From: Pelagibacteraceae bacterium AG-404-P08
GTDB lineage: Bacteria > Pseudomonadota > Alphaproteobacteria > HIMB59
Direction: 5' to 3'
Length of the DNA stretch: 64,000 nt
Assembly: GCA_003216195.1 (NCBI GenBank)
Contig: QCJF01000008.1
Coordinates: 1-64,000 of the forward strand
Notes under the pieces: generated by a model
Databases searched by the model: none
What the model was told of the DNA's origin: nothing
Seen by the model: only the letters and a program-made list of their open reading frames with translations
Program-made: the position numbers and the translations under genes
Shown: positions 8,079-21,329 of the stretch, piece after piece
How positions within the stretch are numbered: the first letter of the stretch is position 1
Layout: every line of letters begins with the position of its first letter

Positions 8079-8119
8079 ATATTGTTTATTTTAGATTTTA
8101 ATATAAATAATAACACAAT

Positions 8120-8195
<76 letters not shown>

Positions 8196-8269
8196 TTTAC
8201 TTTTAGTAGAAACAACCCTTAAACACATATAATTGATTATTCTCAATACTTACATTAAGTTTAAAATAT

Positions 8270-18086: not shown

Positions 18087-18989
18087 ATGAATTTTTACCT
18101 ACCTATTGCTGAAATATCCATAAATATTTACATATTAATTTCCCTTGGAGTTGGAATTGGTTTTATATCTGGGCTCTTTGGCATAGGTGGAGGTTTTATA
18201 TCCTCTCCTCTTTTGATACTAGTTGGCATTCCTCCAGCTGTTGCAGTTGGAACTACAACTGTTCAAGTATTCGCCTCAACATCAACTGGTGTTGTAAGTC
18301 ATTTTCAAAGAAAAAACATAGACTATCAGATGGGCTTAACAATGGTTATTGGTGGATTAGTGGGGACACTTTTTGGTGTATTAATATTAAATAATTTAAA
18401 AACTATTGGTTTAATTGATAACTATTTAAATAGTATCTATATAATTCTTTTAATTATAACTGCTGTATTTATTCTTTATGAAACAGCTAAAGTTAATATC
18501 GTACATAAAAATAAAAAATTTAAATTACACCAGCATTCTTGGATACATGGACTTCCTTTTAAAATTAAGTATAGAAAATCTAAACTATATATAAGTGTAC
18601 TAGCACCACTTTTAATTGGTTTTTTTATAGGTGTATTGACAGGGCTAACTGGTATTGGTGGTGGCTTTATACTTATTCCATGTATGATTTATTTTTTAGG
18701 TATGAAAACTATTTCAGTAATAGGTACATCTCTATTTAACATCACGATAGTATCCTTTGTATCTTTATTTTTACAGATATACATAAATCAAAATATAGAT
18801 TTTGTATTAGCTTTAGGATTAATAATAAGTAGCTCTATTGGAGCTGCACTAGCTGCAAGGATAGTTGATATACTTGATCAAGAAAATTTAAAGGTAACAT
18901 TTGGTATGTTACTATTAATTATTTCATCATTTTTAGCTTATGATTTATTTAGAACACCTGAGAACTTATTCATTATAAATTATGTATAA
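18087..18989 (+). CDS. TauE/SafE-family membrane permease (probable sulfite/organosulfonate or anion exporter)
   Basis: The 300-residue protein has the duplicated TauE/SafE architecture: GLFGIGGGFISSPLLI in the first half and GLTGIGGGFILIPCMIY in the second, each beginning a bundle of about four transmembrane helices. Members export sulfite, sulfoacetate or related anions. A hydrophilic loop of about 40 residues joins the halves. It overlaps the TIGR02186 gene by 8 bases. I recall this pair as conserved in alphaproteobacteria, but the substrate cannot be read from the sequence. Confidence 0.88.
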   Translation: MNFYLPIAEISINIYILISLGVGIGFISGLFGIGGGFISSPLLILVGIPPAVAVGTTTVQVFASTSTGVVSHFQRKNIDYQMGLTMVIGGLVGTLFGVLILNNLKTIGLIDNYLNSIYIILLIITAVFILYETAKVNIVHKNKKFKLHQHSWIHGLPFKIKYRKSKLYISVLAPLLIGFFIGVLTGLTGIGGGFILIPCMIYFLGMKTISVIGTSLFNITIVSFVSLFLQIYINQNIDFVLALGLIISSSIGAALAARIVDILDQENLKVTFGMLLLIISSFLAYDLFRTPENLFIINYV

Positions 18990-19659
18990 ATATATTTTAA
19001 TAATCATATTTTTTTTTAAAATTGGTTTTGCATCTAATTTTTCCTTAGACCAATTTGAAATTGAAATAAACTCAAATTTTTTAGGAAAAGAAGTGGTTTT
19101 ATTTGGAAATAAAGATAAAGACAGTGATGTCATCTTCATTTTTGAGGGAGAGAATAAAAAAGCTAAATTGACAACAAAAGTTAAAGAGGGTTTTTTATGG
19201 ATTAATGAGACAAAAGAATTGAATAATCAACCTAGTTTTTTTGCAATCTTCACTTCTCCCAAAAAGACTTTGAATGAAATTTTTTTATTTTCTAAATTAA
19301 AGGATAGACATTTACTAATCAGTAATAGTTCTCTAGAACTTCATAAAATAAGAAAAGCAATGAAAGTAAAAAATTTGTACATAGAAGAGGAGCTTGAGAG
19401 TTTAAGTGGAAATTTATTTTTAAAAAAATTTTTGATACCAGATAATATCTCACCTGGAAATATAAAAGTTTATATGTACGAATTAAAAAACAATGAAATT
19501 GTTAAAAAGGTATCTAAAAACTTGCAAATAAAAAAAGGAGGAATTTCATTTAAACTGGAAAAGTTGTTAAAAACTGAGTCTTTTATTTATATTATAATTT
19601 TGATTGCTATATCATTATTGCTTAGTTTAGTTACAAATTTAATATTTAGAAAAAAATGA
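18982..19659 (+). CDS. TIGR02186-family membrane-anchored periplasmic protein
   Basis: The 225 residues have a signal peptide (about 1-17), a periplasmic beta-rich domain and a C-terminal transmembrane helix (about 196-221) ending in a basic RKK. Patterns such as EIEINSNFLGKEVVLFG and the layout match the alphaproteobacterial TIGR02186 (Alph_Pro_TM) family of unknown function, which is typically next to a TauE/SafE permease, as here. It overlaps the permease gene by 8 bases and the usp gene by 4 bases, so the three should be cotranscribed. A role as accessory subunit of the permease is inference. Confidence 0.8.
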   Translation: MYKYILIIIFFFKIGFASNFSLDQFEIEINSNFLGKEVVLFGNKDKDSDVIFIFEGENKKAKLTTKVKEGFLWINETKELNNQPSFFAIFTSPKKTLNEIFLFSKLKDRHLLISNSSLELHKIRKAMKVKNLYIEEELESLSGNLFLKKFLIPDNISPGNIKVYMYELKNNEIVKKVSKNLQIKKGGISFKLEKLLKTESFIYIIILIAISLLLSLVTNLIFRKK

Positions 19660-20135
19660 AAAAAAATGATAATAGAAATTATTTTGTAGTTATTGATCAA
19701 AGTGCTGAAATGTGGACTGCAGTTAAATTTGCTATAAGGAGAGCAAAAATAACTAAATCTAATATTACTACTGTTAGCTTTATTCAAAGTGCAAGTGAAG
19801 GTATGATGCTTACATCAGGGGCTGAAAAAATTTTGGATAAAGATCAGGTCATAACCGAAAAATTAAAACATAAAGAGGTGCATAACTTCATCTCAGATAA
19901 ATCAAAAATTAAAGCAAAATCCGAAATATTTAAATATAATGAGATTGATGAGTTTATAAGTTTCTTAAATAAATATTCATCTAACTCAACTATTATTCTA
20001 GCTACAAGTAAAGATATAGGCAAACCAGGGCCTTTAATTGACAAACTTATATATGAAAAATCTAATTCGTTACATTGCCCTCTTGTTATAATTAATGGTA
20101 ATCTCGATGATAAAGATATTGAGAAGATTATTTAG
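19656..20135 (+). CDS. Universal stress protein (UspA family)
   Basis: The 159-residue protein begins with YFVVIDQSAEMWTAVKFAIR, the UspA first strand and helix, then a long variable middle and a C-terminal segment STIILATSKDIGKPGPLIDK followed by SLHCPLVII, which is the place of the usual nucleotide-binding GxxG(9x)GS motif; the glycines are only partly conserved. It overlaps the TIGR02186 gene by 4 bases. Its TAG stop at 20133 is followed in the same frame by the DUF2256 reading frame without a gap. Confidence 0.8.
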   Translation: MKKNDNRNYFVVIDQSAEMWTAVKFAIRRAKITKSNITTVSFIQSASEGMMLTSGAEKILDKDQVITEKLKHKEVHNFISDKSKIKAKSEIFKYNEIDEFISFLNKYSSNSTIILATSKDIGKPGPLIDKLIYEKSNSLHCPLVIINGNLDDKDIEKII

Positions 20136-20279
20136 CTGAATAAAAAAGATTTTAAAATTTGTGTCGTATGCCAAAGACCATTTAATTGGAGAAAGAAATG
20201 GGAAAAAGTATGGAATGATGTTAAATATTGTTCAGAAAAATGTCGAAGGTCAAAATCAAAAATAATAAAGAAAAGATAG
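20136..20279 (+). CDS. DUF2256 zinc-ribbon-like mini-protein, non-canonical CTG start or readthrough product
   Basis: The 47 codons from 20136 encode [18 protein letters not shown] then [10 protein letters not shown], the complete DUF2256 pattern with two Cys pairs (likely metal-binding) around a Trp/Lys-rich core. There is no ATG, GTG or TTG before the conserved part: the frame opens directly after the usp stop with CTG. A GAGAAG at 20121-20126 sits 9 bases before the CTG and could serve as ribosome-binding site. Because the frame is the same as usp, stop-codon readthrough would give a Usp-DUF2256 fusion. Function of the family is unknown. The 3' end overlaps pyrE by 40 bases in another frame. 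Confidence 0.8.
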
Positions 20280-20884
20280 CAAACTTACTGTTAAGTATTG
20301 GATGCGTTAATATTAACTTCAAAAAACAATTTACTCTTACATCCGGCAAAAAAAGTCCTGTTTATGTTGATTGTAGAAAATTAATTTCATTTCCAAAAGA
20401 AAGAGAATTAATTATTAATGAAATGAGCAAACAAATTAAATCGAAGTATAAAGATAATTCGACTATTATTGCTGGAGGCGAAACTGCTGGTATTCCCTAC
20501 TCTTCCTTTCTTTGTCAAAAGATGAAATATCCAATGATATACATAAGAAAGAGTCCTAAAGGGTTTGGAAAAGGTAAGTTAATAGAAGGAGAGTTTAAAA
20601 AGAATACTCAGTCAATATTAGTAGAAGACATGGCTACTGATGGAGGAAGTAAAATACACTTCATAAAAGCTTTAAGACAAAATGAACTTAAAGTTAAAGA
20701 TATTTATGTAGTTTTTTACTATGGTATTTACCCAAAAGCAAAAAAAAATATATCTAAAATGAAAGTGAATTTAAATTATCTCACATCCTGGAGAGATATA
20801 TTAACTATTTCTCCAAATTACATTTCAGATAAAGATTACGATAATTTAAAAAGTTATTTAGAGTCTATTTCAAGTGGAAAATAA
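20240..20884 (+). CDS. pyrE: Orotate phosphoribosyltransferase
   Basis: PyrE joins orotate and PRPP to make OMP in pyrimidine synthesis. The PRPP-binding motif [12 protein letters not shown] and the N-terminal [17 protein letters not shown] match the family. I choose the ATG at 20240 ([12 protein letters not shown]), giving 214 residues; an in-frame ATG at 20228 also exists. Either start lies inside the DUF2256 gene. The last 11 bases overlap the next gene, so translation is probably coupled. Confidence 0.92.
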
Positions 20885-21329
20885 AATTATTAGTGTTGTT
20901 TCTGGAGGGTTTGACCCTATCCATCCTGGGCATATTATGATGATGAAAGAATGTTTAGAGTTTTCTAATTATTTAATTGTTGGTGTAAATTCTAATAAAT
21001 GGTTAATTGATAAAAAAGGAAATTTTTTTATGGATATTCAACATAGAATGTATGTTGTTGATAGCTTAAAAGTGGTAAATGAAGCTATGGAATTTGAAGA
21101 TGATGAAAATGGAAGTGCAAATAATTTGTTAATTCAAATAAGAAATAAATATCCAAATGAAAAAATTATTTTTGCTAATGGTGGTGATAGATCAGACACT
21201 TCTAAAATTTTAGAGTATGAAACAGCAAAGAAATATAATATTGAATTAAAATTCGGTGTTGGTGGCAATCACAAAGAGTCCTCCAGTTCTGATTTGCTAA
21301 AAAGATGGAGTGAATACTCTAAAAACTAA
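20874..21329 (+). CDS. Cytidylyltransferase-like nucleotidyltransferase
   Basis: The 151-residue protein starts with GTG inside the pyrE end and has VVSGGFDPIHPGHIMMMKEC, the HxGH nucleotide-binding motif of the cytidylyltransferase/PPAT superfamily, then LIVGVNSNKWL and RMYVVDSLKVV. The C-terminal SSSSDLLKRW is in the place of the usual ISSTxIR motif. Such proteins activate polyol phosphates, sugars or pantetheine phosphate with CTP or ATP; the size suggests a glycerol-3-phosphate cytidylyltransferase or RfaE-like domain, but the substrate is not evident. Its end overlaps pdxH by 4 bases tail to tail. Confidence 0.8.
   Translation: MENKIISVVSGGFDPIHPGHIMMMKECLEFSNYLIVGVNSNKWLIDKKGNFFMDIQHRMYVVDSLKVVNEAMEFEDDENGSANNLLIQIRNKYPNEKIIFANGGDRSDTSKILEYETAKKYNIELKFGVGGNHKESSSSDLLKRWSEYSKN

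Follow-up and report, generated by a model that had tools for sequence, protein, structure and literature searches.

A conserved CTG codon directly behind a Usp-like gene as the probable start of a DUF2256 small protein in a genus of HIMB59 Alphaproteobacteria

Conserved weak start codons are already known in bacteria, with infC, cvfC1 and ccpN as examples. In Staphylococcus aureus cvfC1, which encodes a 61-residue protein with a possible zinc finger, starts at AUU and ccpN starts at AUA; both non-canonical codons are conserved, and in poor medium they give, in the experiments described in the part of the report available to us, about a tenth of the reporter output of the corresponding AUG mutants (PMC13009471). 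The same part of that report describes infC, the gene for IF3, as probably autoregulated. A second described system is termination-reinitiation, which in E. coli and H. volcanii needs an overlap or a very short spacing between the stop of one gene and the start of the next (PMC10666635, in the sections at hand). The CUG codon itself has a poor record as a start. In the excerpt available of PMC9845219 neither E. coli nor chloroplasts expressed GUS from it, which counts against it as an initiation codon, and initiation complexes on CUG are described as less stable than those on AUG, GUG and UUG (PMC11497404, accessible portion). Across 36 groups of related genomes, starts turned into CUG in 2 of 61,358 cases for AUG, 1 of 5,080 for GUG and 1 of 2,468 for UUG, according to the portion of PMC5622118 that we draw on; as a start codon CUG is very rare, and substitutions seldom produce it.

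The locus described here combines features of these systems and adds a CUG codon that abuts a stop in a context poor in Shine-Dalgarno sequence. It lies in a window (the whole stretch of DNA that was analysed, 64,000 nucleotides) from a 1.24-Mb assembly of the HIMB59 lineage, probably of the HIMB59/AEGEAN-169 group described in the accessible part of PMC10308909. The gene order in the cluster is TauE/SafE permease, Alph_Pro_TM protein, Usp-like ORF, DUF2256, pyrE and a cytidylyltransferase-like gene, and its features are as follows.

18087..18989, + strand: TauE/SafE permease (PF01925, E 5.6e-50), which opens the tight cluster
18982..19659, + strand: Alph_Pro_TM membrane protein (PF09608, E 4.6e-27)
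19656..20135, + strand: Usp-like ORF of 159 residues with an ATG start and a TAG stop (weak Pfam Usp match), the upstream partner of DUF2256
20121..20126, + strand: GAGAAG, a weak Shine-Dalgarno-like hexamer that also encodes Glu-Lys of the Usp-like protein
20133..20135, + strand: TAG stop of the Usp-like ORF (TAA in 18 of 39 genomes)
20136..20138, + strand: CTG, the putative DUF2256 start, at zero gap behind the stop (39 of 39 clade genomes, no changes on the tree)
20136..20279, + strand: DUF2256 small protein of 47 residues, zinc-finger-like with CxxC...CxxxC (PF10013, 67.4 bits; codon-position bias), stop TAG at 20277-20279
20240..20884, + strand: pyrE, orotate phosphoribosyltransferase (TIGR00336, 111.7 bits, cut-off 106.8), with its ATG inside DUF2256
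20874..21329, + strand: cytidylyltransferase-like gene (PF01467, E 1.2e-09), which closes the cluster

The junction reads ...GAGAAG ATT ATT TAG CTG AAT AAA AAA GAT TTT AAA ATT TGT..., with nine bases between GAGAAG and the CTG, and in the window the Usp-like ORF and DUF2256 share one reading frame. The initial annotation had described a TAG followed by an in-frame CTG that opens a 47-residue DUF2256 protein, with no ATG, GTG or TTG ahead of its conserved cysteines. Sequence and Pfam confirm this description: positions 20136-20276 match PF10013 (E 1.2e-18, 67.4 bits, above the gathering cut-off of 25), and none of the 47 codons is ATG, GTG or TTG. For this reason DUF2256 is absent from a listing of ORFs of at least 30 residues with ATG, GTG or TTG starts, which reveals an annotation blind spot. 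The upstream gene had been called usp. Its ORF and the position of its stop stand, while the family assignment is weak, at 15.1 bits (E 0.036) against a gathering cut-off of 24 for PF00582, and we therefore name it Usp-like only. Each of the 11 aligned relatives gives a Usp match with an E-value of 1 or lower, the best being 0.0022, an AlphaFold2 model shows helices alternating with strands (pLDDT 79.3 in the best of five models), and a search of PDB sequences returned no match at E up to 1.

Several properties of the DUF2256 frame indicate that it encodes a protein. The CxxC and CxxxC motifs and the WRKKW core are invariant in a seven-sequence DUF2256 alignment. Within codons 2-34, differences summed over all pairs of 28 distinct sequences number 662, 458 and 2436 at the first, second and third codon positions, a bias that points to protein-level selection on the frame. 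These data bear on the reading that DUF2256 is an untranslated relic overlapping pyrE, for which the lack of a canonical start speaks, as does the fact that its final 40 nucleotides are also pyrE coding sequence and would be preserved anyway. The codon-position bias, however, lies upstream of the pyrE overlap, all 39 genomes keep the frame open and the Pfam score is far above its cut-off (67.4 versus 25 bits), and a relic is thus extremely improbable. The overlap itself is a constant feature: in all 39 genomes the pyrE ATG is at +104 relative to the CTG, the two genes sharing 40 nucleotides including the DUF2256 stop, so that approximately the last 12 DUF2256 codons (20240-20279) are dual-coding. 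DUF2256 is mentioned in the accessible part of PMC11796252; a search of the open-access literature, in which the family is seldom named, returned no function for it and no earlier description of a CUG start.

The junction was compared across 100 genomes, 77 of which carry DUF2256 (42 of 52 in the genus, the genome of the window included, and 35 of 48 in the sister family; the counts exclude 33 contig loci that are largely repeats of counted genomes). In 39 of the 42 DUF2256-bearing genus genomes the stop of the Usp-like ORF is followed by CTG at zero gap and in one frame. This recurrence rules out a read error at the TAG, one of the ways in which the initial annotation had foreseen that its reading might fail, and decay of the region, another of these, was not found in relatives, as the 47-residue frame is open in all 39. 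None of the 10 genus genomes that lack DUF2256 matched the Usp-like protein, in a search run without a positive control; one of the 10 is 92% complete, so loss is possible.

Within the 39 genomes the elements of the junction differ in how strictly they are kept. All 39 genomes, with 38 distinct sequences among them, carry the CTG, and none has an in-frame ATG, GTG or TTG between the stop and the first cysteine codon. The stop, by contrast, is kept as a stop but alternates between TAG (21 genomes) and TAA (18 genomes). On a tree of 38 sequences, distinct over a longer stretch and without L091 and L064 (total length 1.97 substitutions per site), the CTG shows no changes, whereas the third base of the stop changes at least 5 times. 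L091 was also left out of the 37-row codon alignment, as its Usp-like ORF is truncated by the end of the contig. In the Usp-like gene, the codons of nine other invariant Leu positions undergo 5.33 changes on average on the same 38-row tree, and within the conserved ORFs of the window CTG makes up 28 of 1865 Leu codons. Any mutation of the first base of the CTG would produce a canonical start; none is seen. With the rate taken from the Leu codons of the Usp-like gene, the Poisson probability of an unchanged CTG is ∼0.005, a value that makes the case look too strong if the local DUF2256 rate is the relevant one. Synonymous change inside DUF2256 is slow (19 degenerate codons with a mean of 0.95 changes, 10 of them with none; four fourfold sites in codons 2-34 with a mean of 0.75, two with none). 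The invariance of the CTG is therefore strong as a pattern and, taken alone, not decisive statistically. The absence of a canonical start in 39 of 39 genomes does not depend on the synonymous rate.

These comparisons also bear on how ribosomes may reach the CTG. DUF2256 could start there independently of the Usp-like gene, through a ribosome-binding site of its own. The hexamer GAGAAG, which the initial annotation had put forward in this role, does lie nine bases upstream, the start region is A-rich, and in 9 of the 11 relatives that were folded the CTG stays mostly unpaired. The hexamer, however, is weak and intact in just 26 of 38 distinct sequences, with at least 5 changes and variants as poor as GAAAAA, whereas all 39 genomes keep the zero gap, which makes an uncoupled start highly improbable. 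A conserved RNA structure at the start was considered and rejected: the folds differ among the 11 relatives, with the CTG partly or fully paired in L098 and L077. Similarly rejected was a start at an ATT or ATC at codon 8, which is absent in 2 of 39 genomes and would begin just ahead of the first cysteine.

The other three genus genomes (G013, G015 and G024) provide a natural variant of the junction. In these DUF2256 also lies behind the Usp-like ORF, starting at a TTG within the last codons of that ORF, with an 8-nucleotide overlap at its stop and in a different frame; G013 is the one of the three for which the whole cluster was listed. The zero-gap CTG and the 8-nt-overlap TTG arrangement both leave the two proteins intact, and they are thus most simply separate products. 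The pyrE start is inside DUF2256 in both readable TTG genomes (in the third, L102, pyrE was not found before the contig end), so the overlap alone does not explain why CTG is used rather than TTG. The initial annotation had regarded an ATG start in another register in relatives as evidence against its reading. A start in another register does exist, as the TTG of these three genomes, and it speaks against a fusion of the two proteins, not against the CTG start.

A fusion had been offered as the alternative to reinitiation: some ribosomes would read through the stop and make a Usp-DUF2256 protein, DUF2256 having no start of its own. The single frame, the zero gap and the lack of a canonical start in 39 of 39 genomes fit such a mechanism, and with the slow local synonymous rate the CTG could be a Leu codon that has simply not changed. 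The stop is followed by C, as it is in only 36 of 458 genes in the scanned stretches described below. A C directly after a stop codon can weaken termination, which also counts for read-through. The identity of the stop, however, is not maintained, with at least 5 changes between TAG and TAA, and in the three TTG genomes the frames differ, so that plain read-through cannot fuse the proteins there and cannot be a mechanism common to both arrangements. A plain Leu CTG would moreover be expected to drift to TTA or CTT in the manner of the nine other invariant Leu codons. Fused Usp-DUF2256 proteins, whose occurrence in other genomes had been proposed as a check, were sought by eye in the first 130 residues of ten long open frames around DUF2256, none of which looked Usp-like, and no tRNA with a CTA anticodon was found in 800 kb (57%) of the G030 genome. 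We consider read-through very unlikely. Of the two options in the earlier reading, reinitiation thus stands and read-through does not: the fixed CTG, the fixed spacing and the lack of another in-frame start argue well for a CTG start after termination.

Weak DUF2256 starts extend beyond the genus. In the sister family f2 DUF2256 sits behind a different gene (listed for G052), and all 34 genomes with a match in its genus g2 have TTG as their sole NTG start (34 of 35 in the family). Together with the three TTG genomes, these data show that an NTG start at DUF2256 is the rule in the order; non-AUG starts are usual, at 76 of 77 genomes with a match, and the CTG is the extreme form of them. In one sister-family genome, G062 (L192), DUF2256 has an ATG and its frame is broken mid-way, giving two split matches and one TAA, which reflects either decay or a read error. 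A survey of the class matched DUF2256 in 85 of 289 genomes, five of them from this order, and 77 of the other 80 were examined, G156, G263 and G308 being left out of the start-codon count as weak or partial. Of these 77 genomes from outside the order, 67 have an ATG available, where available means within 30 codons before the first cysteine and not a proven start, five a GTG, two a TTG and three none of these. The locus therefore shares the family and the cysteine pattern with other alphaproteobacterial PF10013 members, most of which differ in having an ATG available. In two genomes of the alphaproteobacterial family f40, G242 (L261) and G137 (L262), DUF2256 has no ATG, GTG or TTG before the cysteines; an aligned ATT behind an AGG-containing stretch may be the start in both, and L261 also has a CTG farther upstream. 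Among the eight loci of their genus five have ATG and one has TTG.

Whether initiation is relaxed throughout these genomes was addressed with an orthologue scan, in which the window, 290 kb of G029 and 100 kb of G004 (454 kb in all) were compared with 800 kb of G030, a single contig of 1,410,127 bp. The scan returned 474 orthologous ORF pairs, equivalent to 301 distinct G030 ORFs as pairs repeat across the query genomes, and 403 of the 474 have an aligned ATG, GTG or TTG near the N-terminus. Among the 449 pairs of at least 40 residues that reach both C-ends (279 distinct G030 ORFs), DUF2256 alone has an N-terminal aligned CTG and no shared canonical start, and it was detected in this way in all three query genomes. 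The sole other aligned CTG-CTG has a canonical start three codons on, and generally relaxed initiation in the genus is rejected, as no other such gene occurs among the 449 pairs. The scan also picked up an RF2-like ORF (prfB, by eye) as startless, a positive control demonstrating that true startless frames can be seen; this ORF presumably lacks a start in its long frame owing to the programmed RF2 frameshift. Other candidates did not hold. The gene recognised by eye as rpsU has a TTG two codons before its assumed start. In the G030 gene recognised by eye as ligA (reverse strand, G030:C1 700001-1100000) no start is in frame, while its relatives have ATG; an out-of-frame ATG that adjoins a run of A suggests a frameshift or a read error. 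Three short pairs of the 474 (G029 259890, window 8094 and G004 69497) have an early aligned CTG, and at least one member of each pair lacks a canonical start; they were not counted as genes because all lie opposite tRNA genes. These frames (window 8094-8198, minus strand; G029:C2 259890-260063; G004:C2 69497-69601) are conserved and mimic short proteins, and can mislead a scan for start codons. In the scanned stretches there is nothing unusual about a stop and a start that adjoin at zero gap: with starts picked by a nearest-codon rule there are 13, of which six have ATG, six TTG and one, DUF2256, CTG. One tRNA-Met was seen in the G030 scan and, by eye, was taken as an elongator.

Weak starts are kept elsewhere in the order, as shown by infC. 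In nine infC genes from ten members (L263-L271) the 75 nucleotides before the match contain a TTG and no ATG, in 9 of 9, and the TTG is directly behind an ATT in 8 of 9. A conserved near-cognate start is common to infC and DUF2256; infC differs in its presumed control by its own product, as far as the part of PMC13009471 at hand describes it, and in a codon that is not CTG, no such loop being known for DUF2256. The resemblance to S. aureus cvfC1 and ccpN lies in a weak start that is kept over relatives (here CTG without ATG, GTG or TTG in 39 of 39 clade genomes and TTG in three further genus genomes) and, for cvfC1, in a small product with a possible zinc finger. The differences are that the AUU and AUA codons, in the account available to us, are accompanied by a strong extended Shine-Dalgarno site, while DUF2256 has a CUG and a weak hexamer that is not conserved (26 of 38); no strong conserved extended Shine-Dalgarno site is present at DUF2256. 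cvfC1 is also the first gene of its operon in the same partial source, whereas the DUF2256 CUG abuts a stop inside a gene cluster. With termination-reinitiation pairs the locus shares a stop and a start within a few bases, the gap being 0 in 39 of 39 genomes and an 8-nt overlap in 3 of 3 others, and an 8-nt overlap is among the common spacings listed in PMC10666635. The overlap motifs in the accessible part of that report use ATG or GTG starts, and a zero gap with CUG was not seen among them.

Taken together, these comparisons make it highly likely that DUF2256 starts at the CUG and that this start is coupled to termination of the Usp-like gene. In the proposed mechanism a ribosome would end the Usp-like protein with the CUG as its next codon, and some ribosomes would restart there with initiator tRNA. 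As CUG pairs poorly with initiator tRNA and strong Shine-Dalgarno assistance is lacking, a small fraction would be expected to restart, so that DUF2256 would be a separate 47-residue product, scarce and dependent on translation of the neighbouring Usp-like gene. We infer from the comparative data that the CUG is a real start, that coupling is the route to it and that its weakness is a selected trait. Every first-base mutation would yield a stronger start, and the retention of CUG in 39 genomes therefore suggests that weak initiation is under selection; the rare, frozen codon probably serves to keep the amount of DUF2256 small. The overlap with the pyrE start is one possible reason for such selected scarcity. 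A more tentative extension, which we regard as somewhat doubtful, is that the CUG acts as a maintained translational valve, in which the worst usable NUG codon is kept genus-wide by selection behind the Usp-like stop, a small and constant proportion of terminating ribosomes sets the dose of DUF2256, perhaps in an IF3-sensitive way, and the pyrE start is not buried by ribosomes that translate DUF2256. If this were so, conserved stop-abutting CUG starts would represent a class hidden from gene callers that accept only ATG, GTG and TTG. The junction also provides a natural setting in which to ask whether the choice of start codon is relaxed by termination-reinitiation.

With respect to the neighbourhoods of DUF2256 in other lineages, a photolyase/cryptochrome-like motif occurs in the stretch around DUF2256 at 10 of 83 loci and does not represent a general association; none of the three members of the order in this set (L182, L193 and L194) shows it. 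Where it was recognised by eye near DUF2256 (L108, L115, L127, L132, L158, L160, L163, L169 and L180, and L114 on the other strand), it may provide a hint to the function of the family in those lineages.
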